Source: Begonia masoniana
Lineage: Eukaryota; Streptophyta; Magnoliopsida; Cucurbitales; Begoniaceae
Assembly (NCBI GenBank): GCA_022432975.1
Contig: CM039509.1
Location: forward strand, 24,335,432 to 24,399,431
Direction of reading: 5' to 3'
Length of the DNA stretch: 64,000 bases
Of the stretch, positions 1 to 64,000 are shown piece by piece. The notes beneath the pieces are model-generated. The model was not told the DNA's origin. It was given only the letters and a program-made list of their open reading frames with translations, and did no database searches. Within the stretch, counting starts at the first letter, position 1. The number at the start of each line of letters is the position of its first letter. Both the position numbers and the translations under genes were made by a program.

Positions 1-1250
1 AAGGCATGAACGACCTGATCAAATTTAAGATTTTTTGCTCAAGAATACGACATATACACATTTACTCTATTTAATAAGCAACGATCAAATGTGTAATGAA
101 ATAAGATTGTAACGCCTCCGAACCCACCCCGGCTCGGTGCGCTACTTGGCTCACTCTACCCCGATGAAAACGACGTTTAAAATAATTTTTATAAACCCCA
201 AACTATACAAATCGGACACAGCGAAATTTAAAGCTAAGTCTCCTGAAGCTCTCTTATGTCATACCTAGCTGCCTAGACTCACTAATTTCCCTTAATCCTA
301 ACCGTTAAGTACCACGGCGTCCTCCTCGAAAATTTTGACAAAGTAACGCCTGAAAATGGCGCTTCCAAAATGCTAGGTACCTGCAAATGAATCAATTCTC
401 AACCAGATCTAGAATACTCTTACTCCATTATCCACTTAATTATTCAGCATACGAAATCTCCAAATAGTAGAAAAGAGAGAAACTATAATACTAACATCCC
501 TAAGTGAAGAAAGTCCATAGTATAGGGCGGCACATCACCCTTAACTATGACTACATACAACAAATACAAATAGCTATACTATAACTGTCAAAAACATCAA
601 CAAAAAAGAGTTACGCATTCCCATCATTTCCACAAACAGACATCTACAATAAACTACCAAAATACAAAGCCCCACATCCCTTGAAGACTATGGTCGAGGC
701 GCCCCGAAAACTGCCCACACCGGCGTTCCCCGTGTGCCACCGACTGCCGCCTAATCCTGGCTCCTCATCAAGCTCACCTGTATACCTCGTCACCTACACC
801 ATAAAACACAAAACATAAGCTTAATGCTTAGCAAGTAGGGAATAACAAATGAGACCACATAATGCAATCAAACCTAACACATGCAGTTTCTAACACTCAG
901 TTGTGCTTGTTTGCTGTTCGTTGCTTTAATCATTTCATAAGCCGTGTGGATCGGGTAGCTCACATCCTATAATCGTACAGGACGGCCATTCCCAGAACCA
1001 CCATTACATATTTTAGTCGGTCATTTCATAAGTTGTGTGGATCAAGTAGGCACATATCTCATAACTGTCTAAGACGGCCACGCCTTGATTCACCAAATCA
1101 AAACGGGTTAGCTCACGTCGCATGACTGTCTAGGACGGCCAAGCACGGTTGCCATAACAACACCTGTAACGACCCCGTTCCCAGCAAGATATTGTCCGCT
1201 CCGGGGATTGGGCCGCAGCCCAATATCCTCCCCTCACGGCTTTGTTTGGC

Positions 1251-3074: not shown

Positions 3075-3696
3075 CTACATCATAAGGTGTAACTGTAAGC
3101 CTAAGGCTTAGTAAGGAATGCAAACTATTATGAGTTCATGAATGCATAACTTGGAGAAAAACATGCTCATAAGTCTTTTCTTTTCATGTACTTATCTTAA
3201 TCATCATTCATAATCGTATCTCGTATTCATTGTTCATAATCATCATTCGTAGACATGCTCATATTCATCATTCCTTTCATCATTCATATTCTTCATTACA
3301 TTATGTGGTTTAAGGGAGGATTTGTGCCGGTAAAGGGGGTTCGACAGTGAGTTTGATCATGGTCCCTACTGCGGGTCGTATTCATATGTCCTACTGCGGA
3401 CTGTGACATACGCCGAACCACCCCCAACCCTCACTTAACCACGTTGCATAAGTTTTATCTTCTTACCTTATTCATGAGAAAACATATTTCAAAACATTTT
3501 CATATGCTTGAGAAGTAAAACATGATGCATAACATAAATGCACTTAATCATCGAACTAAGACAGGGGAGTACATGAGAATAACAGAACCATATCCATCGA
3601 CATTTCATCAAACATATAGCAGACAATGTTCACTAAATCTAACTTAATCCTTTGATGTAGGGCCCTATTGGCCGGAAACTTAATACATTCACTTAC
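3075..3696 (-). promoter_or_regulatory. LTR intron-like module, 3' LTR copy of A
   Basis: Element-sense features: CCAG/GTAAGT (3691-3700); hairpin GGCCaatagGGCC (3661-3673); CCTACATCA (complement of 3653-3661); then CTTAC, hairpin TAAGCC-TTA-GGCTTA (3096-3110) and TGATGTAG/GTG (3072-3082), complementary to CCTACATCA over 9 bp. The interval is 622 nt. It also holds two CCTACTGCGG repeats (on the plus strand) and GATGCAT motifs shared with C. Confidence 0.6.
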
Positions 3697-8825: not shown

Positions 8826-8885
8826 CTAAACAATAATAGAAACACATCTTAACATAATGACATCACTAGAATCGTAAACACTTAC
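8826..8885 (-). promoter_or_regulatory. Short leader intron-like segment before gag of A
   Basis: Minus strand: CAACAACT/GTAAGTGTTTACG at the upstream end and TTTCTATTATTGTTTAG/G at the downstream end, 60 nt, ending 10 nt before the gag ATG. B, C, D and E have the same arrangement at the same place. It is shorter than typical plant introns, so splicing is only a hypothesis. Confidence 0.55.
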
Positions 8886-10298: not shown

Positions 10299-10920
10299 CT
10301 ACATCATAAGGTGTAACTGTAAGCCTAAGGCTTAGTAAGGAATGCAAACTATTATGAGTTCATGAATGCATAACTTGGAGAAAAACATGCTCATAAGTCT
10401 TTTCTTTTCATGTACTTATCTTAATCATCATTCATAATCGTATCTCGTATTCATTGTTCATAATCATCATTCGTAGACATGCTCATATTCATCATTCCTT
10501 TCATCATTCATATTCTTCATTACATTATGTGGTTTAAGGGAGGATTTGTGCCGGTAAAGGGGGTTCGACAGTGAGTTTGATCATGGTCCCTACTGCGGGT
10601 CGTATTCATATGTCCTACTGCGGACTGTGACATACGCCGAACCACCCCCAACCCTCACTTAACCACGTTGCATAAGTTTTATCTTCTTACCTTATTCATG
10701 AGAAAACATATTTCAAAACATTTTCATATGCTTGAGAAGTAAAACATGATGCATAACATAAATGCACTTAATCATCGAACTAAGACAGGGGAGTACATGA
10801 GAATAACAGAACCATATCCATCGACATTTCATCAAACATATAGCAGACAATGTTCACTAAATCTAACTTAATCCTTTGATGTAGGGCCCTATTGGCCGGA
10901 AACTTAATACATTCACTTAC
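10299..10920 (-). promoter_or_regulatory. LTR intron-like module, 5' LTR copy of A
   Basis: This is the copy that would be transcribed into the leader: donor CCAG/GTAAGT at 10915-10924, CCTACATCA strand (10877-10885), hairpin at 10320-10334, acceptor TGATGTAG/GTG at 10296-10306; 622 nt. The inherited LTR still carries the segment, so genomic RNA used for reverse transcription must be unspliced. Confidence 0.6.
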
Positions 10921-11408
10921 CTGGATCCTTAGCAACTTGAATCACTTTCTCTTCAACTTCTTCACCTAAAACATTCCACATTATAGTAGTTAAAATCAAG
11001 TCCTAAAAGTTCTAATCGAAAGTCATCCTAGAATCTAGCAGCTAAGGTTCTCTGTGCAGTCTGAAATCCAAAACCGAAACAGCTAGATATAGCTATCGAT
11101 TAAACGGGGTCGGTTATATAAAAGGTCCAGAATCGATTTAAGGGTGACATTACCAAATGAAGATAAAGAACGATAACCAACTGACTCAGCCATTGAAGAG
11201 CCCGAAAGTACAAGTTCAACTGAAAACAGAGTTCTAAATGACTACCTGGCATCTACATTGTCAAAATCTTACCTAGAATGCGGGTTATCGGAGTGGAGGC
11301 TGAAAGACCAGTTGCTGGGGAGGAAGAAGGCTCCAGAGAAGAAGGGAGTCGCCGAGAGGAAATGTCGGCTGCAGTGAGGTTTTAAATGAGATTTAAGGTT
11401 TCCATTTT

Positions 11409-11419
11409 CTATTTATACC
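11409..11419 (-). promoter_or_regulatory. TATA box of element A
   Basis: Minus strand GGTATAAATAG about 160 bp inside the 5' LTR. This implies a short U3 and a long R-U5 that includes the intron-like module. Confidence 0.7.
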
Positions 11420-13020
11420 TAATCCTTCAATCTTTATTACAAAATTGCCACTCAACCTAGTTTTACTCAACTTGTAATGAATTTGCCTCAACGTTAAATT
11501 TAATCATAAAGGTTAAATAAGGGTAACAATTAGAATGGTCAGAAAAATTCACCTGGCCGAAATGTCGGGTGTTACACCGAAGCCCTCTTAACTTCGGAGT
11601 TCTTATGGGATCCGTTGTCAATTGAGCTCCAAAACGCGTCTTGCTATGTTGGGAGGGTCTCTTTACATATGTTTCATTTCCATGTACTTCCCCAAGCGCT
11701 GTGGGATTGTGACGACCCCTCTTTACGACCTGTCACCTTCCGGCTCGCCCGCTCGGACGTACTGCCATCCGGGTTCCGGTTCGTGCAGCCATCGTACCAG
11801 TACAGATTCGGGACTTACAGATTCGGGTCATCACAACACCGATTGTAGAACCCTATGACTGTCTAGGAGTTCATACTCACGATGTTTGCCAAACCGATTC
11901 CTCGTAAAATTTCCCTTCGGGGTGCTACACACCAGCACTTCTTCCCGACAAGGACAAATTACGAGAAACTAATGCTTACAATTCTTTTATCTTATTACAA
12001 TTCACACTCACAATGCAAAACAGTGCACAACTCATATCTAGCGTAGCGTAATGTAACTCACAATGCATGTTTCAAAGATATGCAACCCAACACGAAACAA
12101 AACAAGACAACACAACACGAAACAAAACAACACAACGCAACACGAAATAAATAACCGACCGTTGACCCTACCGTTCCATGGTGTAGGCCTAAGGCAACAA
12201 AAAGGATTCCTCTACTTACCTGGCGTCCTAGCTCGTTGGGTTTGGCACATCACGTCACCTATGGCTCGACCTACGACAAATATTCAAACTTCATTAAAAT
12301 CAAGCGTCCATTCACTAATTACTCTCAAACTACTATTTCTAGCCTAATCCAATTAAAATCTAACTAAACGGGCCACTAATTTGGGTTCGGTAAAAACCGA
12401 TCCAAAACTTCGAACGCTCATAACTTTTGCGTTGGTTATCAGAATTGAACAATTCTAGCGGCCACGTACTCCTCTAATAACCTAGTTTAACCTGCCAAAA
12501 GGAAATTTAAAACAAACAGTTGTAGCTAGGTCAAATACAGTAAAACCCGAATCTACCCTAAACTGGAAATTTTTCCTTTTTCGGTTTTCCATCAATTCTC
12601 ACCCGTTTCATCACCAATCAACAACATTTATCTTCAATTAGCATAACCTAATCAAAATCCCAAGGCTACGCACAGCAAAAATCAAAACGCCCAAATCGGG
12701 CTTGCTGGTTTTTGCCCACATAGGGCTCTTCACGGCCAGGCGACCAAAGCCTGTCCAAGGGTCGACAAACCCACGCCAGAGGTGACCAAATCTGGCCAGT
12801 GATCGGAGCTCAAACCCGCTCATCACCTCGGCCATGAACAGAACTGAAACAGGGGAACAGGAAGACTTACTGTTCGGTCTTATACGCGAAGACGGTCGGA
12901 AATGGCAGCCCTGGAAGCGCCGCCGTCATCTGGCCTGAAAATGGCAAGGAATCGTCGGCGCTCATCGCCCCTCTCCCTCCTTCTCCGATCGGGTCTTCGG
13001 CACTCGAGCGCTCGAACCCA

Positions 13021-17659: not shown

Positions 17660-18397
17660 CTACATCATAAGGTTTAAACTATAAGCCTAATGCTTAGTAA
17701 GGAATGCAACACTAACATGGATGCATGAATGCATAATTTGGGAAAATCACATGCTCATAAGTCTTTTCTTGTTCATGTCTTTGCCCGTAATCATCATTCA
17801 TAGTCATTGATCATAATCATCATTCATGATCATTGTTCATATTCATCATTCACAGTCTTTGATCATATTCATCATTCATAGTCTTTGATCATATTCATCA
17901 TTCATAGTTTTTGATCATATTCTTTGTTTAGGTTGTGTGGATCAAGAGAAGATTTGTGCCGGTAAAGGGGGTTCGACAGTGAGTTTGATCTTGTTCCCTA
18001 CTGCGGGTCGTATTCATATGTCCTTCTTTGGACTGTGGCATACGCCAAACCGCCCCCAACCCTCACTTAATCCACGTTGCATAAATCTTATATATATACA
18101 TATATACATTCATATCTTGTTCATAGAAAACATGTGTTAAAACATTTTCTTATGTTTGAGAAACATTCGTGATGCATGAACATGAGAACTTTTAACTCAT
18201 CAAACTATGACAAGGATCACACCATAGCAGACAACTTCACATTTACTAGCAGATCATCACATAGTATAACTCACAACATACATAAATCCTTCAAGTGAAG
18301 ACAAACTCATTATCGTAAGGTAAACATTAGACATCTCAACCTAGTACTCCCACGATGTAGGGCTCCATTAGCCGGAAATCTTAATACATTCACTTAC
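17660..18397 (-). promoter_or_regulatory. LTR intron-like module, 3' LTR of C
   Basis: Donor CCAG/GTAAGT at 18392-18401; hairpin GGCT-loop-AGCC, a compensated variant of GGCC-GGCC; CCTACATCGTGGG pairing with CTTATGATGTAGG over 13 positions with three G-U pairs; second hairpin TAAGC-loop-GCTTA (17682-17696); acceptor TGATGTAG/GTG at 17657-17667. Length 738 nt. Confidence 0.6.
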
Positions 18398-20964: not shown

Positions 20965-23960
20965 TGTGACGACCCCGACCTAACGTCGGTGCCGCCACGA
21001 CCTGTGTCATGCGTGCATACCTACATACGTACGTGTTACCCTCGCCCGTTCTCACTTAAATTTTTTTTCTTTTCTTTCATCATTTCTCTTTTCCTTTTCA
21101 TTAATTCATTTTCCTTCATCTTTGTTCATTCGTTCGTCGGAGAACGGACTCGGGCATTTAATCCACATCTATCGACATTTTGGCTAACTTAAAACATACC
21201 CAAAATAACTCCTCTAGGGTCGGGAATCATCAAAAGAGGCTTTAACAAGTTAGACATAATGTTCGTCAACGTTTTACATCATTAAAACGAGCTTAAAACC
21301 ATTTTTCGAAAAAGTGTCGGCTCGGTTTTCGGGTCTTTAAAACCCTCTAAAATACTTGGGGACCGCTCGTAAAATACGTTTAAAAAGTATCGTAAAAGGT
21401 CGGGTCGAATCGTGTTTCGAAAAGTCAAAAATTCGAAAAAAAGTAATTCGGGGTCGCCGCTGTGCGCCTCCCATGCGGCCCGGCCGCGATCGGTCGCGCC
21501 CTGGGCTCGACCGATCAGGCCGGCTCTGGCCATTTTCAACCAAAAACATCCCGGCCACAACCGATCGTGCCCCGGGCCCGATCGGTCGGGCCGGCTCGGG
21601 TTTTTCTCGCCCAAAAACATTTAAAAACGCCCATTTTGACCCTTTTTGACTTTTCTCCATATTTCTTCCCATTTTCCCTAACAAAAAACCTCCAAATCAC
21701 TTGAAAACCTACCCATGCATTCCCGACATCCTCAACGCTACCTCCCGTAAAAATCTTTAAAAATCGACTTAAAATGGAGCGTAAAAACGTATCCGAAAGC
21801 GTACCTAAAATTCACGAAAGCAACCCGCGTGGTTCGTTCTAAAAACCGAACGTTCCACCTAAAATCATCCAAATCAAATACCAAACTCCAATTCTAACTT
21901 AAATCCTCAAACTACCTTCAAAACATCAAAACTCACCCAATCTACAATTTTCATTTCTATTTCACCAAAAATTCATTTAAAAAATCAAAACATTCTATTC
22001 AGTCAATGTTTACTATACGTGGCGGAAACTAATCAAAATATCGATTTACAACATATCCAGATACCAAGCATCCTATTAGGGGTTCTATACAAACATTTAA
22101 AACATCCTCCCCAATAAACCATAGCAACCCAAAATCCCAAAATACATAACCTATGCTCCGTACGGGTTGTGCTCGCATCGACTACGCCGGCCACCCTCAC
22201 GAACATCCTTCGTCAAGCCGTAGGCTCGTCTGGTGGAGGGACATCGTCCTCACCTTGCTCGTAATCACCTACACCATAAAGACACCTATGAGATAAAAAT
22301 CTCAGCAAGTTCTACGTTAATGCATATGCATGGTCATGCGTGCAATGAAAATTGTCCATGTCAGTACATGTCAGTCTATGGTTAACGAGCCCTAAATGCA
22401 GTCAGATGGGTAGGGCACATCAAGCGGGTAGACAGCCCGCACCATCTGAAAGGAGGAAGACCCGCTCACCACGGAACGACAGGTCTGAACCTCACCCGAA
22501 TAACCACCATACGTTGTTTATTAGATACTTACTTAGCACGTGCATGTAATTCTTTCTCTTTGAAACAAATGCGTAAATTCATTTTTTTTTTCATGGCATT
22601 TTGAAAACTGTGATGCATGAACAGTTCAATACATAATATAAACATGCATAACGAGAATACCATCAAACCTCTCACTATATCAAAACATCATAACACGTAT
22701 CCTATAAAACATTCAAACCTAATCTACCCAACCAAAGTAAAGCAATTAAACAAGCAAAACTCCAACAATCCTCAACAACAAATTCCGACATACGATGTAG
22801 GCCAATCGGCCACAGTAAGTCACGAGAACTTACCTGTCGTCCTTAGCACACCGAGCACCGTCCAAAAGCCTTGTCAACCTAAGGCATTTAACAATGTCCT
22901 TTGTTAAAACCGAACCCAAACATTGAAATTTCATAAACTAACGAAACTCCTAACTGAAGGAAATTTACTAAAATTCTAATAAACCTCTATCGGGCATTTC
23001 ATCGAGCAATTTATGCTCACCAATTTCTAAACTCCATTAATGGAGATTTCCTTAAGCTCCATTTCCGATTTTTCAAACAAAACGCTCACATCATCCATTA
23101 TTTTGCCCCACGACGCTAAACAATCGTCAATACGGCAATATTTAACATTTCCTAACATAACCCGGTTATTTTCAACAAAATCCTACAAAACCCTAACGAT
23201 CGAACGAACTAAAAATCGAAGATAAACTTCCCAAAACCGTAGAGCCTTACCTAGGGAGTGTTTTTGGTGAAGCAACACGAAGAAAACGTCAAAGATCGGA
23301 AGGCAACCGTTGAAGTGAATGATGGATCCGTTGAGAAGGGGAGAGCGCCGTTGGAGAGAAAAGAGGGGAAGAAGAGAAAAGCGTGAAGTGTAGGGGAAAT
23401 GGGGCTTTTTGTGATTTTAATTCCATTGGCTTGGCAATTTACGAAATTGCCCTTCGTCTTAAATCTTCGTTTGTCCTATGGTTCGACTATCAAATCGGCT
23501 TCTCCAAAATTTTCTTATTTCTCCAATAGTTCCAACTTATCATTAAGGCTCTAATAAAACTCTCCGTTCGTCAAACGAATTTAATTTGCTATTTCTACGA
23601 CTTAAATCGCCATAAGGTTAAAATCGGAAACTAAGCACTATATCTCGGTTAGACTTCCTTAAATTCTCATAATTCTCTCAAAATTCATATTAATTATGAG
23701 GATCCCGTTACAACTCTTAATTCGCAAAACGGACATATTTCAACTATTTACGAAATTACCCCATATAACGGAAACCGAACACTTGGGCGTTATACTGTCA
23801 ATTTGGATTTCTGAAATTTCCTTATTCTTCTAAAAATCCTCATTAATTACTAGGGCTCTAACGAAACTTCCCGTTCGTAATACGGGCTCAATTTGACATA
23901 TTTACCAAAATAACATTCATATGCGGAAAATTGAAAACCCGGCGAAAACCGGGTGTTACA
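20965..23960 (-). repeat. 3' LTR of element B
   Basis: Element sense begins TGTAACACCCGG and ends GGGGTCGTCACA. A GC-rich stretch near 21455-21600 is rich in GATCGG/CCGATC palindromic motifs. No gene is seen; reading frames over the GC-rich part are compositional. Confidence 0.93.
22269..22833 (-). promoter_or_regulatory. LTR intron-like module, 3' LTR of B
   Basis: Donor ACAG/GTAAGT (22828-22836), hairpin GGCC-GATT-GGCC (22800-22811), second hairpin TGAGAT-TTTT-ATCTCA (22289-22304), acceptor GGTGTAG/GTG (22266-22276); 565 nt. The second hairpin has a different sequence from other families but stays perfectly paired. CCTACATCGTA pairs with TATGGTGTAGG over 11 positions with two G-U pairs. 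Confidence 0.6.
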
Positions 23961-28748: not shown

Positions 28749-29313
28749 CTACACCATAAAGACACCTATGAGATAAAAATCTCAGCAAGTTCTACGTTAA
28801 TGCATATGCATGGTCATGCGTGCAATGAAAACCGTCCATGTCAGTACATGTCAGTCTATGGTTAACGAGCCCTAAATGCAGTCAGATGGGTAGGGCACAT
28901 CAAGCGGGTAGACAGCCCGCACCATCTGAAAGGAGGAAGACCCGCTCACCACGGAACGCCAGGTCTGAACCTCACTCGAATAACCACCATACGTTGTTTA
29001 TTAGATACTTACTTAGCACGTGCCTGCAATTCTTTCTCTTTGAAACAAATGCGTAAATTCATTTTTTTTTTCATGGCATTTTGAAAACTGTGATGCATGA
29101 ACAGTTCAATACATAATATAAACATGCATAACGAGAATACCATCAAACCTCTCACTATATCAAAACATCATAACACGTATCCTATAAAACATTCAAACCT
29201 AATCTACCCAACCAAAGTAAAGCAATTAAACAAGCAAAACTCCAACAATCCTCAACAACAAATTCCGACATACGGTGTAGGCCAATCGGCCACAGTAAGT
29301 CACGAGAACTTAC
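28749..29313 (-). promoter_or_regulatory. LTR intron-like module, 5' LTR of B
   Basis: Same layout and length (565 nt) as in the left LTR: donor at 29308-29316, GGCC-GATT-GGCC hairpin, second hairpin TGAGAT-TTTT-ATCTCA near 28769-28784, acceptor GGTGTAG/GTG near 28746-28756. Confidence 0.6.
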
Positions 29314-33188: not shown

Positions 33189-35817
33189 TGTAACAACCCC
33201 AGAAGGATCGTCACATAATCCGTATCTTTCTTAATCATCTAATCCTTGTTACTCACACATGATTCATTATCAGTAGTGTATTTCTTTTTTTTTTCTTGAA
33301 ACATAATTCAACTCGAGATGTCATATGCGATTCGCTAAGCCTCAATCGGCAAAGGAAAACATTACATATCTGCCGGCGGGCAGTACAATGTGTATCGGCT
33401 AGTGAAGGGAGAACTTTAAGCCATAGACTGCATCTACTGGCAGAATAATGAACCACATCTACCGGTCACTAGACGACAAGACCATGTTTATACCATCCGG
33501 TGGAGAAACTCTCTACATCAACCGATGAAATAAGGGTACATCATCCGGTGGTCATGTGCATCTCACGTGAATAATTAAAACATGACCCGGACACTAAACG
33601 ACAAATAACATTCTCATCATCCGGTGACTTATTACACTACATCTGCCGATCACTAGACGACAAAATAATACTCTCATCATCCGATGGCTTACACACTCTA
33701 CATCTGCCGATCGCTAGACGACAAAATAATACTTTCATCACCCGATGGCTTACACACTCTACATCTGCCAATCGCTAGACGACAAATAATACTTTCATCA
33801 TCTGATGGCTTATTACACTACATCTGCCGATCACTAGACGACAAAATAACACTCTCATCATCTGATGGCTTACACTCTCTACATCTGCCGATCGCTAGAC
33901 AACAAAATAATAATTTCATCATCCAATGGCTTATTACACTACATCTGCCGATCACTAGACGACAAAATAACACTATAATCATCAAGCATCTTCATCCGAT
34001 AGAACATATCACAATTCACCCGATTATTAACTTAGTAACTATAAACCTCAAAGAGTAACAATCATAAACTCATCTACAATATGCATAGCGGAAGACAAAC
34101 AAAACAAACCATTCATTAATCCTTAAAATCGTATTCAGACTCTAAAGACAAGCTCTTCAAATCCAATTCCCATTGTTATAAGAAATTCTGTTTTATTTTA
34201 GTCATCTGTTCATGGTAAACTTTTCTGACTTACTATGAGCATAACCAGGGAGTTTAGTTGCCTATCCAGCCTTCACTGTCACACTGAGCATCCTCCAGCA
34301 ACCAAGCTTAGACATCCTCATTAACCTTGAGTTCCTCACCTAAAAAACTCGTCACCTACATCATAAGGTTTAAACTATAAGCCTAATGCTTAGTAAAGAA
34401 TGCAACACTAACATGGATGCATGAATGCATAATTTGGGAAAATCACATGTTCATAAGTCTTTTCTTGTTCATGTCTTTGCCCGTAATCATCATTCATAGT
34501 CATGGATCATATTCATCATTCATAGTCATTGATCATAATCATCATTCATGATCATTTTTCATATCCATCATTGACAGTCTTTGATCATATTCATCATTCA
34601 TAGTCTTTGATCATATTCATCATTCATAGTTTTTTATCATATTCTTTGTTTAGGTTGTGTGGATCAAGAGAGGATTTGTGCCGGTAAAGGGGGTTCGACA
34701 GTGAGTTTGATCTTGTTCCCTACTGCGGGTCGTATTCATATGTCCTTCTTTGGACTGTGACATACGCCGAACCGCCCCCAACCCTCACTTAATCCACGTT
34801 GCATAAATCTTATATATATACATATATACATTCATATCTTGTTCATGAAAACATGTGTTAAAACATTTTCTTATGCTTGAGAAACATTCGTGATGCATGA
34901 ACATGAGAACTTTTAACTCATCAAACTATGACAAGGATCACACCAGAGGAGACAACTTCACATTTACTAGCAGATCATCACATAGTATAACTCACAACAT
35001 ACATAAATCCTTCAAGTGCAGACAAACTCATTATCGTAAGGTAAACATTAGACATCTCAACCTAGTACTCCCACGATGTAGGGCTCTATTAGCCGGAAAT
35101 CTTAATACATTCACTTACCTGGTCTCCTTAGCACTTGAGCTCTTTTCTCTTCAAACTTCTTCACCTAAAACATATACATTGCAGTAGTTAAAACAAAATC
35201 CTAATAGTTCCAATCTCAACTCAAGTTATCCTAAGATTTAATAGCTAAAGTCATTCCCGAATCCTTAGTCTAATACCCTGTGTAGTTTAAAATCCAAAAC
35301 CAAAACAGACTGATTCAATTATCGATAACTCAGAGATGGTTGTTCTAAATGTCCAGAATCGATTTGATAAGAGCATTTCCACTCACAGATTCCAAATGTT
35401 CTTATTATTAGTCGGCCACTGGAAAATCCAAAACTCCAATGCCGAGTAGAAAACAAGGCTAACAAGCTAACAGATAGCTACATTGACTATTGCATACCTC
35501 GGCACAGAGTAGTCGAGTGGTGGCAGAGAAACCGATCATCAAAGAGGGTATGCTGGAAGCAGGGAGTAAGAGCTTGGGAGAGAAGAAATCGCTGAAAAGG
35601 AAGGTGTCGGCTATAGGGGTTCAAGTGAGGTTTAAATCATTTCTTTTTCTTTATATATCGATCATCACCCTCCATTATTACAACTTTACCACCCAACCTA
35701 GTTTAAATCCACATGAAATTAATTATTCTTGGAATAAATCCTAAACTGTAAAGATTAAATATTCATGACCGTTAATACAGTTAAGAAAATCACCTGGCCA
35801 TCATCTCGGGTGTTACA
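33189..35817 (-). repeat. 5' LTR of element C
   Basis: 2629 bp; TATA-like TATATAAAG at 35649-35657. Tandem repeat at about 33590-33985, with some units altered compared with the left LTR. Confidence 0.93.
34356..35118 (-). promoter_or_regulatory. LTR intron-like module, 5' LTR of C
   Basis: Donor at 35113-35122, first hairpin GGCT-loop-AGCC, acceptor TGATGTAG/GTG at 34353-34363; 763 nt. It is longer than the left copy mainly through extra TTCATCATTCATAGTC-type repeats near 34500-34630. Confidence 0.6.
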
Positions 35818-37687: not shown

Positions 37688-39793
37688 TGTAACACCCGGC
37701 ATCTTTGGCCAGGAAATTATCCCTCGAATTATCGAACGGGATTAGATTTATATTAATATAATGAATGTTTTGGCTAGATTTGTTGGGATGTTTAGTGGAA
37801 AACTAAACAAAAGTGTAACCAAAACAAATCATTTAGTTAGAAAACCAATGGAGTGACAATTTAGGTAGGAATTAAGATTGGTAGGAGGAAGCCAATGGAT
37901 GAGAGCCAAGTGTCCAGGCTTGTTGAAGAAGCCAAGCCCTCCCTTTCTCTTTCTCTTCTCTACGTGAAACCCTCCTAATTTCTCTTCTCTGTTTCTCTTC
38001 ACTCCTCTCTAAATTCTCTCTCCCAGACGACGAACGACCATCGAAGCTCCTCCGATCTCCCTAGTTTCTTTCTATTTCGCTGCCTAAGGTAGTCATCTAC
38101 TAAAGTTAATGAGTTTGGACAAGTTAAACGTTAGTTTTCTTGAAGTTTTAGGGTTAATGTCCGATCGTGCATGATGTAGATCCGTGGATCGCTGAGGACT
38201 TACGATCAACATTGCAACTCACAGACAACAGGTAAGTTCATGCGTATAAGTTGGCCCTTACTAGGTTTTGGTTCGGGTAGTTAGGTCATAGGTTATGTTT
38301 TAAGTCAAACGTGATCTGTTTCACGTCTTGCTTTTATTCTGTCGCCTGTATATGTTAAGTTTAAGCACCGTGTCTATTCATGCATACACGTTTTTCTTGA
38401 AAGTCATGTAAATGTTTTAAGCACGAGATTTGAAGTTATGAAAGTTAAAAATGTGAATGTAATGTGCGGTTAAGTGTGGAATGAGGACTGACATCCTGTC
38501 ATGTACTCCTGTTGCGCCAGCTCCTCTACCCACTTATACCTTCCTGTCCAGTGAAACGTAATGTAATGTAATGTTCATGTATTTCAAAAGTTCATGCATA
38601 GCATATGCATCACAGTATTTCATGTTCTTACTGAGCTCTAGGCTTATAGTTTAACTCCTTGTTGTAGGTATGGATCCTCTAGATGAGGATTTTGTGCCTC
38701 AGGCCAATGAATAGGTGGTTGGTGGCACGAGCTTTCAGGGGTGGTTGCGGCAGCCAGACACATTTCTGACCAGAGAGAGTGAAGTGTTTATGTTTTTACA
38801 ATTTCTGTTTGGTGAATTCTTAAAGTTTATGTCAAGTTCTGTACAGCTTCTGAGATTTTAAAACTGTGTACAGACTTTGTGTTGATATTTTAAAACTATG
38901 TTTTGAATCGAGTTTTTGAAGTTTGAAGCTTTTTGTGTCAAGTGATGTAAACTGTCAAACAGAGAGGTAGCCGATCGATCGGCTGTGGTAGCAGATTGAT
39001 CAGTGAGGTGTTTCTCTTTTAAAACTGTCGTCCATTCTGCCGTTTAAATTCAAACGTCCAACGTTCATTCTGCCTTCAAAAATTGTTGCCCATTTTGTTC
39101 TGTAAAATAGTCGTCCACGTCCATTCTGCCTTCAAAAAAATAGTTGCCCATTTTGTTCTGTAAAATGTTTGTCCACGCTGTTCTTTAAAACAGTCATCCA
39201 TGCTGCCCTTTTAAAATAGTTGTCCACTCTGTTCCTTAAAACAGTAGTCCAGTTCTGCAGTTGTCCACAGTACTCGCCCATCGAGTAATTGTTTCAAGTA
39301 TTTGGCTAAGTGTTAGTCTTCCATTCTGTCTTTCAATTCTGTCGTCCATTCCGCTTGTTATTTTTAAATGTCCAAAGTCCATTCTGTCTTTCAATTCTGT
39401 CTTCCATTCTGTCTTTCAATTCTGTCGTCCATTCTGCCGTCTATTTTAAACGTCCAAGGTCCATTCTGCCTTTTATTTGAAACGTCCATGGCTTCTGTTG
39501 TCCACAGATTTTGCCTTTCATTTCAAACGTCCACAGTTACTGCCTTTTATTTTAAACGTCCACAGGCTTCTGTTGTCTACTGGTTTTTTTTGCCTTTGAT
39601 TTCAAATGTCCACAGCTTCTGCATTTCTGTCGTCCACGACTTCTGGACTTCTGTCGTCCACAACTTCTGCATTTCTGTTTTCGATTTTATGCCTTTGATT
39701 TTATGTCTGGCCATTAAAAAAAAAAAATAATCCACGTTTTAAAAATGTCCGGAGTGAGGCCCTTCGACCCCGATCAGGTTTGGGGGCGTCACA
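37688..39793 (+). repeat. 5' LTR of element E
   Basis: Begins TGTAACACCCGGC and ends GGGGGCGTCACA. It carries a palindromic GCCGATCGATCGGC near 38969-38982 and a (T/C)GTCCA-rich segment to 39700. In this copy the first hairpin after the donor is deleted (GGCCCTTACTAGG). Confidence 0.93.
38232..38667 (+). promoter_or_regulatory. LTR intron-like module, 5' LTR of E
   Basis: CAACAG/GTAAGT at 38226-38237; CTTACTGAGC-TCTAG-GCTTA hairpin; TTGTTGTAG/GTATGG acceptor-like site at 38659-38673; 436 nt, the shortest example. The first hairpin and the CCTACA strand are missing here but present in the 3' LTR. Confidence 0.55.
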
Positions 39794-41102: not shown

Positions 41103-43652
41103 TGTAACATCCGGCATTTTTGGCCATGAAATTATCCCTCGAATTATCGAACGGGATTAGATTTATATTAATATAATGAATGTTTTGGTGAAATTTGTTG
41201 GGATGTTTAGTGGAAAACTAAACAAAACTGTAACAAAAAAAAATCATTTAGTTAGAAAATCAATGGAAGGGCAGTTTAGGTAGGAATTAAGGTTGGTGGG
41301 AGGAAGGCAATGGATGAGAGCCAAGTGTCCAGGCTTGTTGAAGAAGCCAAGCCCCCCTCTCTCTTTCTCTTCTCTACATGAAACCCTCCTCATTTCTCTT
41401 CTCTGTTTCTCTCCACTCCTCTCTGCATTCTCTCTCCCAGACGACGAACGACCATCGAAGATCCTCCGATCTCCCTAGTTTCTTTCTATTTCACTGCCTA
41501 AGGTAGTTATCTACTAAAGTTAACGAGTTTGGACAAGTTAAATGTTAGTTTTCTTGAAGTTTTAGGGTTAATGTCTGATTGTGCATGATGTAGATCCGTG
41601 GATCGCTGAGGACTTAGGATCAAAGCTCCAACTCACAGACAACATGTAAGTTCATGCGTATAAGTTGGCCCTTAAGGCCCTACAGCATGGAGATACTAGG
41701 TTTTGGTTTAGGTAGTTAGGTCATAGGTTATGTTTTAAGTTAAACGTGTTCTGTTTCACGTCTTGCTTTTATTCTGTTACCTGTATATGTTAAGTTTAAG
41801 CATCGTATCTGCTCATGCATACACGTTTTTCTTGAAAGTCATGTAAATGTTATAAGCACAAGATTTGAAGTTATGAAAGTTAAAAATGTGACTGTAATGT
41901 TTGGTTAAGTGTGGAATGGGGACTGACATCCTGTCATGTACTCCTGTTGTGGCATGTACTCCTGTTGCGCCAGCTCCTCTACCCACTTATACCTTCCTGT
42001 CCCATGAAACGTAATGTAATATAATGTTCATGTATTTCAAAAGTTCATGCATAGCATATATATCACTGCATTTCATGTTCTTACTGAGCTCTAGGCTCAT
42101 AGTTGAACTCCCTGTTGTAGGTATGGATCCTCTAGATGAGGATTTTGTGCCTCAGGCCGACGAATAGGTGGTTGGTGGCACGAGCTTTCAGGGGTTGTTG
42201 CGGCAGCCAGACACATTTCTGACCAGAGAGAGTGAAGTGTTTATGTTTTTACAATTTCTGTTTGGTGAATTCTTAAAGTTTATGTCAAGTTCTGTACAGC
42301 TTCTGAGATTTTAAAACTGTGTACAGACTTTGTGTTGATATTTTAAAACTATGTTTTGAATCGAGTTTTTGAAGTTTGAAGCTTTTTGTGTCAAGTGATG
42401 TAAACTGTCAAACAGAGAGGTAGCCGATCGATCGGCTGTGGTAGCAGATTGATCGGTGAGGTGTTTCTCTTTTAAAACTGTCGTCCATTCTGCCGTTTAA
42501 ATTCAAACGTCCAACGTTCATTCTGCCTTCAAAAATTGTTGCCCATTTTGTTCTGTAAAATAGTCGTCCACGTCCATTCTGCCTTCAAAAAAATAGTTGC
42601 CCATTTTGTTCTGTAAAACGTTTGTCCACGCTGTTCTTTAAAACAGTCGTCCACGCTGCCCTTTGAAAATAGTCTTCCACACTGTTCCTTAAAACAGTAG
42701 TCCAATTCTACAGTTGTCCACAGTATTCGCCCGTCGAGTAATTGTTTCAAGTATTTGGCTAAGTGTTAGTCGTCCATTCTGTCGTCTATTCTGCCTGTTA
42801 TTTTTAAATGTCCAAAGTCCATTCTGTCTTTCAATTATGTCGTCAATTCTGCCGTCTATTTTAAACGTCCAAAGTCCATTCTGTCTTTTATTTCAAACGT
42901 CCACAGCTTCTGTTGTCCACAGATTTTGCCTTTCATTTCAAACTTCCACGGTTACTGCCTTTTATTTTAAACGTTCTCAGGCTTCTGTTGTCTACTGTTT
43001 TGTTTTGCCTTTGATTTCAAACGTCAACAGCTTCTGCATTTCTGTCGTCCACGGCTTCTGGACTTCTGTCGTCCACAGCTTTTGGACTTCTGTCGTCCAC
43101 AACTTCTGCATTTTTGTCGTCCACGGCTTTTGGACTTCTGTCGTCCATAGATTCTTCATTTCTGTCGTCCACAGCTCCTGGACTTCTGTCGTCCACAGAT
43201 TCTACATTTTTGTTGTCCACAGCTTCTGCATTTCTGTTGTCCATAGCTTCTGTCATCCACTGTAGCTTCCCACTGTGTGACTTCCAGTTTACGTTTCCCA
43301 TTTTATTAAGTCTTCCACTGCATGTCTGTCGTCTATTCTGCCCTCGGTTTCTGTTGTCCACTCTGCCTTTTATTTAAAACCTCCAAATGCCAGAATCCTG
43401 TTTAAGTCGAAGTCAAGTCCTAGTGAAAATCCCAGAACTGTTTTCATTTCTCCCTGCCTTCTGTCTTTCTGTTTTACTTATGCCATCTATTTCTGTTGAC
43501 TATTTTAATTGTCTTCTAGTCTTCAATTTCAGGGGAGGTTTTCTCTGTCAAGGTTTTAAAAGTAAAAGTTCAAAAAAAAAAAAAAATAGTCCACGTTTTA
43601 AAAATGTCCGGAGTGAGGCCTTTTGACCCTGATCGGGTTTGGGGGCGTCACA
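41103..43652 (+). repeat. 3' LTR of element E
   Basis: 2550 bp, 444 bp longer than the 5' LTR. The intron-like module is at 41646-42120, with the donor changed to AACAT/GTAAGT, hairpin GGCCcttaaGGCC, CCTACAGCA pairing with TGTTGTAGG (one G-U), and second hairpin TGAGC-TCTAG-GCTCA. The rest of the extra length is a 24-bp repeat array and sequence near 43260-43600. Confidence 0.93.
43023..43257. repeat. 24-bp minisatellite in 3' LTR of E
   Basis: About nine to ten units of TTCTGTCGTCCACAGCTTNTGGAC type; the 5' LTR has about three at 39610-39680. The period is a multiple of three, so long incidental frames arise on both strands here. Confidence 0.88.
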
Positions 43653-47761: not shown

Positions 47762-48318
47762 GTAAGTGGGTGCTGGGTTTCCGGCCCTTAAGGCCCTACA
47801 TCGTGTCAACGTTAGGCTTTTGTTGTTTTGATGATGATTTTCTGATTGTGGGGTTTAATGAGTCGGGTAGCCTAGGATGTTAGTTATTGCTTGTTAGTTT
47901 CCTTGTGAGTATTGTATGCTCATGTACGTTGTGAATTGTTTGGTGATATGTTTTGATGATATGTTATACGTAGATTCCTCATGCATCATGTTTTCTCAAA
48001 TGCATAAGAAACGTTTCATGCATGAATGATGTAAAGGAAAAGTAATGATTAAGTGTGGGTTGGGATAGTATGGCCAGAACAACAAAACCAATGTCACTTC
48101 CATGCGATGGACTATGAATACGGCCGAAAGGACTATGTACAAGCACTTGGCCTACTCCCTGGAACATCCCCACCTTAATCCATGTCAACCAAAAGAAAAA
48201 GAATAAGAACAAGTAAATGAACATGTTTTATGAAAAGAATCATGCATTCATGCATATGTAAAGTATAGTGCATCCCCTTACTAAGCATTAAGCTTAATGT
48301 TTATGTTGCATGATGTAG
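47762..48318 (+). promoter_or_regulatory. LTR intron-like module of F
   Basis: Donor-like GCCAA/GTAAGT at 47757-47767; hairpin GGCC-cttaa-GGCC (47783-47795); CCTACATCGTGT pairs with GCATGATGTAGG over 12 positions including two G-U; second hairpin TAAGC-ATTAA-GCTTA; acceptor TGATGTAG/GTG at 48311-48321; 557 nt. Confidence 0.6.
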
Positions 48319-51805: not shown

Positions 51806-52306
51806 CTACATCACAAAACTCATCTATTAGCCTAATGCTAAGTAAGCAGAGCAAGAAATGATGGAAGTACAGAGATATGCAAATCCTAAATATGCAATTT
51901 CTACATTCCTCTTCCTCAGTTATATTGCATTCATTCAACCGGTCTGATGATCCCTGATACAATGGGAGGTGGATCAGCTTTTCCAGGGTATGAATCCACA
52001 TATATGTCACTTAAGGGGTGGATTAGTTCCCTTAACAGATGATTGATCCCTGATACAATGGGAGGTGGATCGGTTTTTCCCAAGGTATGAATCCAGTTAT
52101 GTTCGATTAAGGGGCGGATTAATTCCCTTAAAAATGTATTGTCCCAATCTGTTCACAACTCACCATGCTACTTCATGTAAATTCATTTTCGTTTTTCTTT
52201 CCAAAATATGATGCATGGCAATTGAAATGAAACATACTTTCATGCATACAAGAAAATCCTAGTGTTTTGTGATGTAGGCCCGAAGGCAAATACAAACTCT
52301 ACTTAC
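51806..52306 (-). promoter_or_regulatory. LTR intron-like module, 3' LTR of D
   Basis: Donor CCAG/GTAAGT (52301-52310); hairpin GCC-TTCG-GGC; CCTACATCACAAAAC (complement of 52264-52278) perfectly complementary over 15 bp to the acceptor strand (complement of 51805-51819); second hairpin TTAGC-ATTAG-GCTAA; acceptor TGATGTAG/GTG. 501 nt. Inside is a direct duplication of a block containing GATCCCTGATACAATGGGAG, about 100 bp apart. Confidence 0.65.
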
Positions 52307-57509: not shown

Positions 57510-59704
57510 TGTAACGCCCCGAGTTATCTGAACCCGGTTCGTTACCACTAACGCAAACATCACCAAGAACTCTCGGAGCGATTTACAATTTCACTCGAGG
57601 ATCAAGATTTGATGCTTATTAAAACCTAAAAATGTTTAAAACTTGCAGCGGAAAATCATTTAGACAAGATGTGAATTAATAAAAACTGTAAAATAATGTT
57701 TGAAAGAATCAGTTGAAGTGTCAAGGAATAATTAGTTGAAGGAAGTAAAAGTTTAAATCGTTAAATACCGATGGGGTGACAGAGGTCAAACGCCCCTGCC
57801 GACGACTAGTCAACGGAATAGGCCATATATAAATAACATGCTTCTGCCGATGACGTCACGACTCAAACACAGCTGCCGACGACTAGTCAACGGAATAGGC
57901 CATATATAAATAACAGGCTTCTGCCGATGACGTCACGACTCAAACACAGCTGCCGACGACTAGTCAACGGAATAGGCCATATATAAATAACAGGCTTCTG
58001 CCGATGACGTCACGACTCAAACACAGCTGCCGACGACTAGTCAACGGAATAGGCCATATATAAATAACAGGCTTCTGCCGATGACGTCAGCAGGATAACT
58101 TAATTATCCAGCTTCTCCTGCCGGTGACGTCAGCCAGATAAACCCATTATCTAACTTCTGCCGATTACTAAACGGCTAAGCAGAATGTCCTACTTATGCC
58201 GATAGAAGGCAAGTTTACTGCTTATCAACTACCGGTAGGACAACAAAACAACTACTCTTCTCCTGCCGATAGACTTTACCAAACAACATCAAATAGACGT
58301 ATTACTCAACTTCATATCGATGGACTGAACAATTTGACAGTAAACTTGACTAACAATTGGACTCAACATTTTACCAAAACTCATTCTAAAACACCTCAAT
58401 TCATTGTATTACTCAAATTCCGTAAAATCAGCATTCTAGAAATTCAACAGGACACTAACATCAAAAATTCTAAAATGTATTCAAAAGGTTGCAATCTCTA
58501 CTGTTATAAAAATTCAACATACTCAGACTAAATCATTGTCAATTAATTTCTCATATCTGCAGACATCAGTTAATCCGCCTCAACAGTTTGCCGAATCAGA
58601 ACATGAGAGTACTCCTCCAACCACATCTATTCATTTGCACGATCAAGGAAATCACCTGCTATATTCTCAACACCTACATCACAAAACTCATCTATTAGCC
58701 TAATGCTAAGTAAGCAGAGCAAGAAATGATGGAAGTACAGAGATATGCAAATCCTAAATATGCAATTTCTACATTCCTCTTCCTCAGTTATATTGCATTC
58801 ATTCAACCGGTCTGATGATCCCTGATACAATGGGAGGTGGATCAGCTTTTCCAGGGTATGAATCCACATATATGTCACTTAAGGGGTGGATTAGTTCCCT
58901 TAACAGATGATTGATCCCTGATACAATGGGAGGTGGATCGGTTTTTCCCAAGGTATGAATCCAGTTATGTTCGATTAAGGGGCGGATTAATTCCCTTAAA
59001 AATGTATTGTCCCAATCTGTTCACAACTCACCATGCTACTTCATGTAAATTCATTTTCGTTTTTCTTTCCAAAATATGATGCATGGCAATTGAAATGAAA
59101 CATACTTTCATGCATACAAGAAAATCCTAGTGTTTTGTGATGTAGGCCCGAAGGCAAATACAAACTCTACTTACCTGGCCCTCCTGGAATTACTTGGTTG
59201 CTAGCTACTTCGGTTTAGCTCAAACCTAAAATCGTAGGCAGTATGTTAGTTATACTTCATTCTAAACAATCCAGGAGTTTAAGGAAATAAATTATGGAGT
59301 TCGGATCTTCGTGCATTCCCATTTCACAGAAACCCGAATCTATACCAAATCATAGCGTTTTCCTCGAAACTTCATACATTGTATTCCCTCAGCTTTCTAA
59401 CTACTAAAATCACAAGAAGACGAGGAGAGTTCACCTAGGTTGAAGGAGAATCGAACAGGGGAATCGCCTGGAGAATCCTGCTGCTCGAGCTGAAAAACCG
59501 AGAGGAAATGAGGGAAAGGGTGGCGGCTACCGTGAAATAACTCAAAACCTCTTTCCTTAAATACGTTATCCACTTTTTAAATTTCCAATTACTCATATGC
59601 CCTTGTCTAGTCATCCACCAACCCTACATTTAATATTGCCATATAAAATGCACCATTAGCTACAAGAGATAGAGAATTGGTCTATATAAAAACCGGGTAT
59701 TACA
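57510..59704 (-). repeat. 5' LTR of element D
   Basis: 2195 bp. Its array has three full 77-bp steps (TGACGTCA at 57851, 57928, 58005, 58082) plus one at 58125, and a 70-bp segment (about 58111-58180) missing from the 3' LTR. The intron-like module is at 58674-59174 with the same 15-bp pairing. Confidence 0.95.
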
Positions 59705-60231: not shown

Positions 60232-60680
60232 AGAAATGTGGCCAACGAGGACGTTGGGCCCCCGAGGGGGGTGATTGTGATGACCTGAATATGTAAGTAT
60301 GAGCACGATTGCGGGACAAACCTCGGGTTGCGGGGCAAACCTCAGGACCTAAGATGAGTGTAGGCGAATCCTAGACTCGAGTATAGGCGAATCCCAGGTC
60401 ATAAGGGAGGTGGTCATCACAATCCCACATTGCTTGGGGAAGTATATGGAAATGAAACATATGTAAAGAAACCTTCCCAAGATAGTAAGATGCGTTTTGG
60501 AACACAATTGGCAACGGATCCCATAAGAATTCCAAAGTTAAAAGTGCTTCGGCAAGAGTAGTACCAGGTTGGGTGATCGACTGGGAAGTCCTCGCCAAAC
60601 AAAGCTGTGAGAGGAGGATATTGAGTTACAGCCCAATCCCTAGAGCGGACAATATCTTACAGGGAAAATGGGTCGTTATA
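60232..60680 (+). mobile_element. Cassandra: Cassandra remnant: partial internal domain and one LTR
   Basis: 60232-60275 is the right part of a Cassandra internal domain (AGAAATGTGGCC to the GGGCCCCCGAGGGGGG tract), followed by an LTR 60276-60680 with terminus GGTCGTTATA (normally TTACA). A 5S-like block lies at 60515-60596: CGGATCCCATAAG, AAAGTTAAAAGTGCTT, GGTTGGGTGATC, GGGAAGTCCTCG. The left part was lost with the left end of F. Opposite orientation to the other two Cassandra insertions. Confidence 0.9.
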
Positions 60681-62092: not shown

Positions 62093-64000
62093 CCTCTCTC
62101 TCTGCATAAAACAGCAGAGCACCCCCTCCCCCTTTAATTTTTTTCCCCTTTCATTTTCTTCTTCCCTCCCTTCCCTCTCTGTGTTTCTCTCAAGGCAACA
62201 AACCGTGACGACGCCGACAACGAACGGAAGCCCTCCTCTCCTCCATTTCTTCCGATTTCTTCATTTAAGGTAACCCCGTACGTTAGTTAATGAGATTAGG
62301 CTAGTAATTCATTGATTTCGTTGGATGTATTTAGGGTTTGGGTCAATTTTATTCCAAAGCATGTTAGAACGATATTTAAGGGTTCCAATGGATAAACTAA
62401 GGAAAAACTAAGCTCATTCGATGAAAAACAGGAATTCGATTGAAAATCAGGTTTTTGCTAGGCAGCCTACAAATTTGAATTCTGCGGTTGTTACCGGCTT
62501 GATTTTTAAAAATTAATGATTCCATGTTAAACTAGATGTAACGAGATTTCCGAAACATGTTGAATTGTCGAAAACGAATAAAAATCGAGAGAGTTACGAC
62601 CGTTTGAATTTTAGCCTAAAAATAGGAGAAATTCGAGATTTTTGAATGAAAACTTGTTTGAATTCGAAATTCGGTTATTTTAGGCTATTTGAATGAGCTT
62701 GGGTCATATTTTACCTAGTTTATTAGTTAGCATTTTTGTAACGTGGTTTATGGTTCGATTATACGTGTTATAGGTTCGTGACTCGCCGAAGAAATACGTT
62801 CAAGGCTTGCAAACTCTACGGACCTCAGGTAAGTTCATATGCATGTGTTGGCCCTTAAGGCTCTACATCACGGAAGTACTAGGCTTTTATGTTGTCGGGT
62901 AGATAGGTCGTAGATTACGTCTTAAGTTAAGTGTGTTTATTTTATGTATTGTCTTGATGACCTGTCGTTTATTTTATGCTTCGAGAACTTCTTTTTTAAT
63001 TATGTTATGTTTATGCACAATGTATGTTCATGCATCACGTTTTTTAGGAAAATCAAGTAAAATGTTTTACGCACGTGATTTGAAGTTAAGAAAGATGAAA
63101 ATGTAAATGTAAAGTACGGTTAAGTGTGAGACAGAGACTGGCATATGTTCTTGTCCTTCCCTGGGACTATGTAAAACCGTTCTCGCCAAGGACAACATGT
63201 ATTTTATCCCTCTCTGGGACCCGACAAAACCACTAACCAAGTCATGTATGTATCTGCGCCTGTTTCTCTATAAGCCTCACTTATACCACATGTCCACTTG
63301 AATGTAAATGTAAAGTAATATTCATGTTTTTGAAACGTTCATGCATAGCATGTGCATCATTTGCATTATATGATCTTATTGAGCTTTAGGCTCATTAGTT
63401 GAACTCTATGACGTAGGTACGGATCTTACGGATCGTACGAATGAGGACTCAGAGCCTCAGGCCGATGTGTAGGTGCAGTTGGTTGGACGAGCTTGCGGGG
63501 GTTGGTTGCCACAGTCATGCGTATTTTGACTCGTAGGTGACGTTTTGAGGTGTATGCCACATTTGTGTAGTCTTAGTTATTATCCTTTTGAAAAAATATT
63601 GGAACTTTTTGGGCTATTAGGTTGTGCATGGATACATTTGGTTTTTAGATCGATCCATGCAGTTTGATTTCTTAGATTCCGCCACGTTTTCTAACACGTT
63701 TTGAGCTACATTTTTTATTCATGTTTTTGAAGTATTTTACGTTTAGAAAGGTAGGGAAAGGTTTTAGGTAAGTTTAATGTGAAGTGTAGGTGGATAAAAT
63801 GTGGAAAATGTTGAAGTGTGAGAAAAAGGGGCGAAGTGGGCGCATTGGGGGCGTTGTGCGCGTACGGGGGTCGCGCTGGGTGTACAGGATGCGCGCACAA
63901 GGTGCGCACAATCGATCAATCATAGCCAAGGGCCGATCGATCGGCGTTATGTCTAATTTTAGTCTGGGAACCAGAGCGCTCGCCGATCGATTTCGCGTGG
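61854..64000 (+). mobile_element. Element G: 5' part of a gypsy-type LTR, open at window end
   Basis: Begins TGTAACACCCGACATTTTCGG, very like the LTR start of A, in plus orientation, and continues past 64000. A (CT)n microsatellite lies at 62060-62089. Near the window end GGGCCGATCGATCGGCG recalls the palindromes in E and F. Whether it is a full element or a solo LTR cannot be told. Confidence 0.88.
62829..63416 (+). promoter_or_regulatory. LTR intron-like module of G
   Basis: CTCAG/GTAAGT at 62824-62834; hairpin GGCC-cttaa-GGCT (one G-U); CTACATCA against TGACGTAG with one mismatch, the weakest pairing of the set; CTTATTGAGC-TTTAG-GCTCA hairpin; GACGTAG/GTAC acceptor-like site; 588 nt. Confidence 0.55.

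Follow-up and report, generated by a model that had tools for sequence, protein, structure and literature searches.

A standing question about long terminal repeat (LTR) retrotransposons is how their single transcript is shared out between translation and replication; the plant cases in print, as far as the accessible parts of the literature go, concern mainly Ty1/copia elements. The question is raised in another form by a 64,000-nucleotide (nt) stretch of the Begonia masoniana genome (the window in what follows), which is filled by a nest of LTR retrotransposons and in which the Ty3/gypsy elements, among them element A, our main example, carry an intron-like module inside their LTRs. Splicing of an intron in this place must spare the copy that serves as genome, yet the copies examined have kept splice signals that are nearly perfect, together with a helix that covaries and covers the acceptor. 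One acceptor type alone accounts for 3,607 copies in the genome (795 Mb, 308 contigs), and the question can be tested at a named junction. We consider it rather probable that the module is a spliceosomal-type leader intron in which RNA structure masks the acceptor and the branch point, so that messenger RNA (mRNA) would be kept apart from genomic RNA. The analysis is based on this single plant genome, and its sequence evidence is genomic DNA.

A structured intron-like module in the LTRs

All eight Ty3/gypsy LTR families recognised in the window carry the module, which was found in both LTRs of A, B, C and G and also in F, a solo LTR (S), H and E. In element sense, its parts follow one another in the same order in every family seen: exon 2, CAG/GTAAGT, a hairpin P1, an arm P, the intron body, CTTAC, a hairpin P4 and an arm P' leading into AG/G, with P and P' forming a long-range helix, P2. 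An initial annotation of the window had placed the junction of element A at 10920/10299, which is exact (minus strand, 622 nt), and had listed the module in A, B, C, D, F, G, the solo LTR and the 3' LTR of E; we recognise it in A, B, C, F, S, G (probably the D of that list) and E, and in H as well, and E is not acceptor-only, as it has a donor arm at 12219. The two halves of E have presumably been separated by other elements nested between donor and acceptor. The interval, given there as 440-760 nt, measures 436-763 nt for the intron (intron 2 hereafter) in the 12 unsplit window copies. The donor, described there as CAG/GTAAGT or close, reads CAT/GTAAGT in the 3' LTR of F; the 5' LTR of F has lost P to a deletion, and the core of P2 in H contains one A.C mismatch.

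Across the 42 paired introns assembled below, which span 309-908 nt with the split E apart, arm P (CTACATC type) begins 29-37 nt past the donor. P1 occurs as GGCC/GGCC, GGTC/GACC, GGCT/AGCC or, in several families, GCC with a UUCG loop, and by a permissive, uncontrolled criterion it can be formed flush with P in 41 of the 42 rows. All 12 aligned window rows share an A within P4, about 33 nt 5' of the AG, as expected of a branch point, and we take this A to be the putative branch point. Counted from the acceptor G, the pairing of P2 comprises 14 perfect pairs in G, 14 in E, 12 contiguous pairs including G.U in B, 11 including G.U in S, 10 in the 5' LTR of C, 8 plus 4 in the 3' LTR of F, and 8 followed by a break in A, with position 9 unpaired in several families and one extra pair from the first exon base where TAC is preceded by CC. 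The compensatory change of ACATC/GATGT to ACACC/GGTGT, which the initial annotation assigned to the solo LTR and B, actually occurs in the 5' LTR of C and in E; S keeps ACATC/GATGT, and the 3' LTR of C has ACATC opposite GGTGT, with one U.G.

Given seven family representatives, RNAalifold recovered P1, P2 and P4 unaided, and it also pairs a mid-intron ATGCAT-CA (7/7 rows) with a CATGCAT-like word upstream of P4 (most rows). A central intron stem, GGTTAAGTG/CACTTA, was noticed by eye. Rfam covariance models gave no match in 10200-11100 at E-values up to 1, and elsewhere in the window only 5S rRNA reached the gathering threshold; a pattern scan of IMG/VR for outside relatives returned four matches, with no module following any of them.

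The elements are of the chromovirus type of Ty3/gypsy, judged by domain order and by the C-terminal SH3/chromodomain of the integrase. Element A, which lies in three pieces, encodes gag, protease, reverse transcriptase, RNase H and integrase with a Tf2-1-type SH3, and a Chromo match below the Pfam cut-off is present at the C terminus in three of three elements (A, G and B; E-values 0.0004-0.001). The label Tekay in the initial annotation was taken only as a lead. The primer binding site (PBS) of element A reads TGGTATCAGAGC, presumably of the tRNA-Met type.

Covariation of the long-range helix

The conserved RNA structure is, we are nearly certain, real and not a product of chance. When the arms of the eight window families are re-paired in all 40,320 ways, their own P-P' pairings score 203 against a mean of 169, and only two re-pairings attain this score, namely the true one and the equivalent exchange of A with B, two families that have a common P'. 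E joined this test after the initial seven families, for which the corresponding figure is 2/5,040; by pair count alone, 10 of the 40,320 re-pairings match the truth.

For a larger alignment, a covariance model was built from the acceptor side only, using nine window rows with C left out of training. It recovered both held-out C copies (E-value 0.016) among 14 window matches at E-values up to 1, one of them chance-like, and gave 38 matches at the same cut-off in 200 kb adjoining the window. The donor side lies outside the model and was read off afterwards by a search pattern requiring GT[AG]AG and the first five letters of P. Thirty introns from the 200 kb and 12 of the 13 window copies (the 5' LTR of F, whose arm is lost, being left out) made up 42 rows. 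A tree was inferred from flanking sequence from which the arms under test, namely P, P', P4 and A1 (the CTTAC), had been excluded, and the null model scattered the same number of substitutions independently along this tree in 3,000 simulations, with invariant columns kept constant; near-identical LTR pairs stood as separate rows, with short branches.

Paired cells numbered 332/336 in the P2 core (null mean 303, maximum 331) and 197/252 in its extension (null mean 130, maximum 188), values reached in none of the 3,000 simulations, while the 207/210 of P4 were reached in 5. The covariation score was reached by one simulation in 3,000 for the core and by none for the extension or for P4. At core position 6, for example, T-A occurs 23 times, C-G 15, A-T twice, and T.G and G.T once each, and G.U makes up 17 of the 332 paired core cells. 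P and P' covary beyond what relatedness explains, and the pairing is thus not the product of a simple shared repeat. The claim of the initial annotation that the two strands are complementary and covary is borne out by the re-pairings and the tree-aware simulations alike.

A further pairing, of the donor GTAAG (D1) with CTTAC (A1), is kept in 209/210 cells; we regard it as a suggestion, because 35 of the 3,000 simulations reach this value and the donor is invariant in these rows. Scored by ungapped pairing, P ranks first among the sites of the intron to which it belongs in six of seven introns and fourth in H; duplex energy is a weaker locator, ranking P 1, 1, 2, 2, 4, 6 and 23.

In 60 kb from three other contigs, there were 11 acceptor matches at E-values up to 0.1, eight of them with a GTAAGT donor and a P arm within 1.3 kb, and the core is complete in all eight; one of the three partnerless acceptors sits below GATAAGT. 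One divergent copy (L037 7547-7607, minus strand), with P arm CTACGTCACAAAAT, a matching acceptor, donor CAA/GTAAGT and a longer spacing from donor to P, appears to be a further family. Its own P' beats all 42 earlier P' arms, and for the other seven copies 5 to 17 of the 42 score equally well or better, so that these copies add little on covariation.

Predicted folding

Whole-intron folds of 28 representatives gave P2 a probability above 0.5 in 21, with a mean of 0.75 vs. 0.37 when a foreign P' was supplied. The mean paired probability is 0.89 for the acceptor AG and 0.89 for the branch A, vs. 0.62 for the donor. In these predictions the donor thus appears less buried than either the acceptor or the branch point.

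Splice signals and an apparently multi-exon leader

The intron-like ends described in the initial annotation, with a near-constant GTAAGT, an AG/G acceptor and an exon-like stretch upstream, are present. GTAAGT and AG occur in 42/42 rows (the search having demanded GT[AG]AG), and together with the putative branch A they make up the signals of a spliceosomal intron. In a scan of 324 kb for P1 plus P in their previously seen forms, in which the donor was not used, GTAAGT lay at most 34 nt upstream of 48 of the 52 unique sites, against a background frequency of 1.06% in equal windows; of the remaining four, two read GATAAGT and one reads GTAATT, while the last has no donor. These sites are mostly copies already counted, and therefore not a second sample. 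Because the donor lies outside the covarying helices, its constancy is not explained by RNA structure alone. With an approximate matrix, CAG/GTAAGT was the top donor in six of the seven LTRs scanned.

By a loose, uncontrolled criterion, AG/G (mostly TTAG/GT) is found 30-65 nt upstream of 46 of 48 donors, giving a putative exon 2 of 44-58 nt in most copies. The putative exon 1 farther upstream is CT-rich and, with the borders that we presume, lacks an ATG in five families (A, C, F, G and S) but not in B. The donor at its end is of the TAG/GTAAG type in A, C and S, whereas B, F and G have less standard ones. No exon 1 could be recognised in H, and a TATA-like word was matched by pattern in A and B only. 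In five families (A, B, C, F and G), another intron-like stretch lies between the PBS and gag and reads CAACT/GTAAGT (AAACT in C) ... AG/G ... ATGG; among 22 PBS-like matches in the window and the 200 kb, 13 have such a donor, 10 of which also have a recognisable acceptor, for a length of 54-65 nt, and nine, some of them the 5S-bearing repeats described below, do not. This stretch, intron 1 and exon 2 are additions to the initial annotation. With exon 1, intron 1, exon 2 and the PBS-gag stretch, the leader resembles a plant 5' untranslated region made up of several exons, and to judge from these signals splicing of the leader intron is likely to occur.

A small spliced open reading frame across exons 2 and 3, open by eye in several families, was considered and dropped, because single-base indels distinguish exon 2 of A from that of B and most copies of exon 2 have no ATG.

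Which RNA is copied back into DNA

The spliced junction CCAG/GTGANGANNTNTCAGGTGAGG, a pattern covering A/B-type copies with exon 2 ending in CCAG, occurs in 0 copies genome-wide, vs. 3,607 copies (1,780 + 1,827) of the unspliced acceptor with the same exon letters. The A-type spliced junction was likewise absent with up to three mismatches, and the spliced PBS-gag junction in A/B-type letters with up to two, the latter count having no denominator. Either spliced RNA has never been a template or splicing is absent. The statement of the initial annotation that genomic RNA must remain unspliced is compatible with these counts, which would look alike if there were no splicing.

Proposed mechanism and alternative explanations

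Taken together, we favor the reading that the structure masks the acceptor of a leader intron. P2 would hold the intron ends together by joining the site 29-37 nt past the 5' splice site to the last 8-14 nt of the intron, and P2 and P4 would bury the acceptor and the branch point, while the donor stays at maximal consensus. A maximal donor with a buried acceptor fits splicing that would be partial or regulated. The spliced RNA would then be the gag-pol mRNA, and the unspliced RNA, keeping the whole LTR, would be the sole template for reverse transcription, so that folding of the RNA may determine which transcripts serve as messenger and which as genome. What we observe is the sequences themselves, the covariation, the association of the helix with a 5' splice site and, in the A/B-type families probed, the lack of spliced DNA copies; we infer the splicing, its reduction by structure and the distinct fates of the two RNA pools. 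Masking of the near acceptor may also redirect splicing from the donor to the acceptor that directly precedes the gag ATG. As a more tentative extension, possible though we would not count on it, the module could be an RNA switch shared by an entire group of plant chromoviruses, in which closed P2 and P4, possibly with a GTAAG-CTTAC pseudoknot, yield a retained intron and a packaged genome, and the open form yields a spliced, translatable mRNA. Such a switch would constitute a conserved structural gate that divides one transcript into messenger and genome at an LTR intron.

Several points weigh against this reading. The evidence is entirely genomic DNA, and P2 could equally aid splicing. Zero spliced DNA copies would be equally expected without any splicing. 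The first five letters of P were fixed by the search and P' lies within the acceptor model, so core pairs 1-4 were hardly free to vary and the tree test rests on positions 5-14. In the folds, P4 as such averages only 0.55, and the fold figures have no baseline from other positions; P2 is unpredicted in 7 of the 28 (A, S, H, L026, L020, L020b and L014), including the very copy of A in which the module was found, and a foreign P' does about equally well or better in some introns (L014, L016 and L019a). The acceptor passes the approximate matrix in five of seven LTRs and fails in S and H. Exon 3 of A contains ATGs upstream of gag, and the leader would therefore not be cleared by removal of intron 2 alone. 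Under the search pattern, a partner is missing for 6 of the 37 acceptors in the 200 kb (38 less an edge partial in L022) and for 3 of the 11 in the 60 kb. Among the six, L013_5005 has an intact P below GATAAGT, L015_3788 has P and lacks the donor, and L027_2542 has a donor, while its arm, CTATGCCA, falls outside the pattern and could still pair through G.U; for L031_1927, L014_9114 and L016_6963, no donor/P partner was seen with this pattern. Finally, L032_396 combines the donor of the C type with an acceptor of the B type, and its core has a mismatch at position 6; it was left out as a chimera, and with it the core stands at 339/344. This copy (L032 396-456, minus strand), with 537 nt from donor to acceptor, belongs to a chimeric or rearranged LTR.

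Alternatively, P2 may promote splicing, looping out an intron of several hundred nt and joining donor and acceptor, as an ordinary enhancer of leader-intron splicing or expression. The position of P in the 42 rows and the flush P1 (formable in 41) mean that P2 brings the ends of exons 2 and 3 close, and long-range intronic pairings are widely catalogued in human genes, according to the accessible part of that work (PMC8052449). However, splicing must open the helices that contain the acceptor AG and the putative branch point, and the element requires unspliced RNA as its genome; we regard a splicing-promoting role as rather unlikely.

Slightly less likely still, though together with the former one of the two serious rivals, is that the structure serves packaging or dimerisation and sits in the intron to restrict packaging to unspliced RNA, any effect on splicing being incidental. 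Retroviral psi sits downstream of the major donor. The structure here exists only in unspliced RNA, only unspliced sequence is found as DNA, and P1 is a GC hairpin of compact form, whose loop is UUCG in several families. However, such a signal leaves unexplained why P' should end at the acceptor AG, as it does in the copies examined.

It is improbable that the module is a conserved RNA structure unrelated to splicing, with the donor- and acceptor-like letters belonging to the RNA motif. The zero spliced copies and the restriction to genomic DNA would suit this explanation, but the upstream GTAAGT is near-constant outside the covarying helices, AG/G precedes 46 of 48 donors at an exon-like distance, and a separate GTAAGT...AG stretch precedes gag. 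An artefact at the DNA level, such as a nested insertion with terminal inverted repeats or the correction of one inverted word against the other as a quasi-palindrome, would account for P and P' being inverted copies, but is very improbable, given that G.U persists (17/332) where DNA correction would remove it, that position 9 is unpaired in several families and the part order is the same in every family seen, and that paired cells exceed the tree-based null.

Relation to known systems

Retroelement splicing as such is of a known kind; what would be new here is its place, in the LTR leader, and the conserved structure. The comparisons that follow refer to the accessible portions of each publication. 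BARE1, a Ty1/copia element of barley, is likewise a plant LTR retrotransposon with an optional intron; it makes a subgenomic gag RNA by splicing, its RNA falls into distinct pools, and there too the lack of spliced copies in DNA has been used as an argument (PMC3735527). However, its intron is 104 nt long and lies directly after gag in a single open reading frame, unlike the LTR leader of the Ty3/gypsy elements studied here, and long-range covarying structure is unmentioned in that portion (PMC3735527). A 2025 review names Ogre and EVADE as notable intron-containing plant elements; EVADE (Ty1/copia, Arabidopsis), with its shGAG, and Ogre also have functional introns and subgenomic RNAs made by alternative splicing, whereas splicing in EVADE removes the protease domain, and the text available mentions no leader intron in the LTR (PMC12786077). 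Diaspora is a Ty3/gypsy element of soybean with predicted LTR donors and acceptors around the gag start, but the donors are of medium confidence and structure goes unmentioned in the accessible text (PMC1142308).

Regarding structure, the plant motifs DEAD, 45ABC and GRP7&8 are likewise RNA structures, with indications of covariation, around a conserved splice site, which they are proposed to control; however, they belong mainly to host protein-coding genes, and the main text contains neither "transpos-" nor "LTR" (PMC12218528). The nonconventional and intermediate introns of euglenids also have paired ends, and the nonconventional ones keep complementarity over sequence (PMC4770533). Unlike these, the introns described here have a consensus spliceosomal donor and an AG acceptor. 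In the literature searched, outside which most subscription papers fall, we found no LTR leader intron, no covarying intron structure in a plant retrotransposon, and no structural gate that splits a retrotransposon transcript into messenger and genome at an LTR intron. An LTR leader intron with conserved structure is therefore likely, though not certain, to be new.

Features in the window and further observations

The positions of the intron 2 copies and of the leader parts of element A are collected in the table.

Table 1. Coordinates in the window of the intron 2 copies, their parts and the other leader features of element A.
Feature	Position	Strand	Remarks
A 5' LTR, putative leader intron 2, 622 nt	10299..10920	-	CCAG/GTAAGT ... 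TGATGTAG/GTG; donor G 10920, acceptor G 10299
A 5' LTR, arm P of P2	10871..10884	-	CTACATCAAAGGAT
A 5' LTR, arm P' of P2	10299..10312	-	terminates at acceptor AG
A 5' LTR, hairpin P1	10885..10897	-	GGCC AATAG GGCC; flush with P
A 5' LTR, hairpin P4	10320..10334	-	TAAGC CTTAG GCTTA; putative branch-point A
A 5' LTR, CTTAC	10335..10339	-	complement of donor GTAAG; suggested D1-A1 pairing, weakly evidenced
A 5' LTR, putative exon 2, 45 nt	10921..10965	-	TTTTAG/GTGAAGAAG...CCAG
A 5' LTR, putative leader intron 1	10966..11272	-	CTAG/GTAAGA ... TTTTAG/GTG
A 5' LTR, TATA-like box	11410..11417	-	upstream of CT-rich exon 1; putative role
A, intron-like stretch from PBS to gag ATG, 60 nt	8826..8885	-	CAACT/GTAAGT ... 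TTTAG/GAATCTCAAGATG
A 3' LTR, intron 2, 622 nt	3075..3696	-	
B 3' LTR, intron 2, 738 nt	17660..18397	-	
B 5' LTR, intron 2, 763 nt	34356..35118	-	
C 3' LTR, intron 2, 565 nt	22269..22833	-	
C 5' LTR, intron 2, 565 nt	28749..29313	-	CTACACC with GGTGTAG
F 5' LTR, intron 2, 436 nt	38232..38667	+	deletion removed P arm
F 3' LTR, intron 2, 475 nt	41646..42120	+	donor CAT/GTAAGT; CTACAGC with GTTGTAG, one G.U
Solo LTR S, intron 2, 557 nt	47762..48318	+	donor CAA/GTAAGT
G 3' LTR, intron 2, 501 nt	51806..52306	-	perfect 14-bp P2; P1 with UUCG loop
G 5' LTR, intron 2, 501 nt	58674..59174	-	
H LTR, intron 2, 588 nt	62829..63416	+	P2 core with one A.C mismatch
E, donor GTAAGT to arm P	12173..12219	-	CTACACCATGGAAC; donor 12219; separated from acceptor
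E, P4 hairpin and P' arm	794..848	-	acceptor AG at 794

In C-type introns (C, e.g., 29295-29313 on the minus strand; L018_8733; L027_2542), a perfect complement of GTAAGT, ACTTAC, follows seven bases on, and judging by its letters it could possibly form a donor-masking hairpin. Sequence resembling 5S rRNA is present in repeats at 1164-1757, 36184-37416 and 60233-60681 (five Rfam matches); we presume that these repeats resemble Cassandra-type LTRs. Element A and one 5S-bearing copy seem to be nested within an LTR of E. By self-BLAST, an array of units of about 77 bp occupies 49314-51314 on the 3' LTR side of G, and it seems to be far shorter in the other LTR of G (about 57786-58089).
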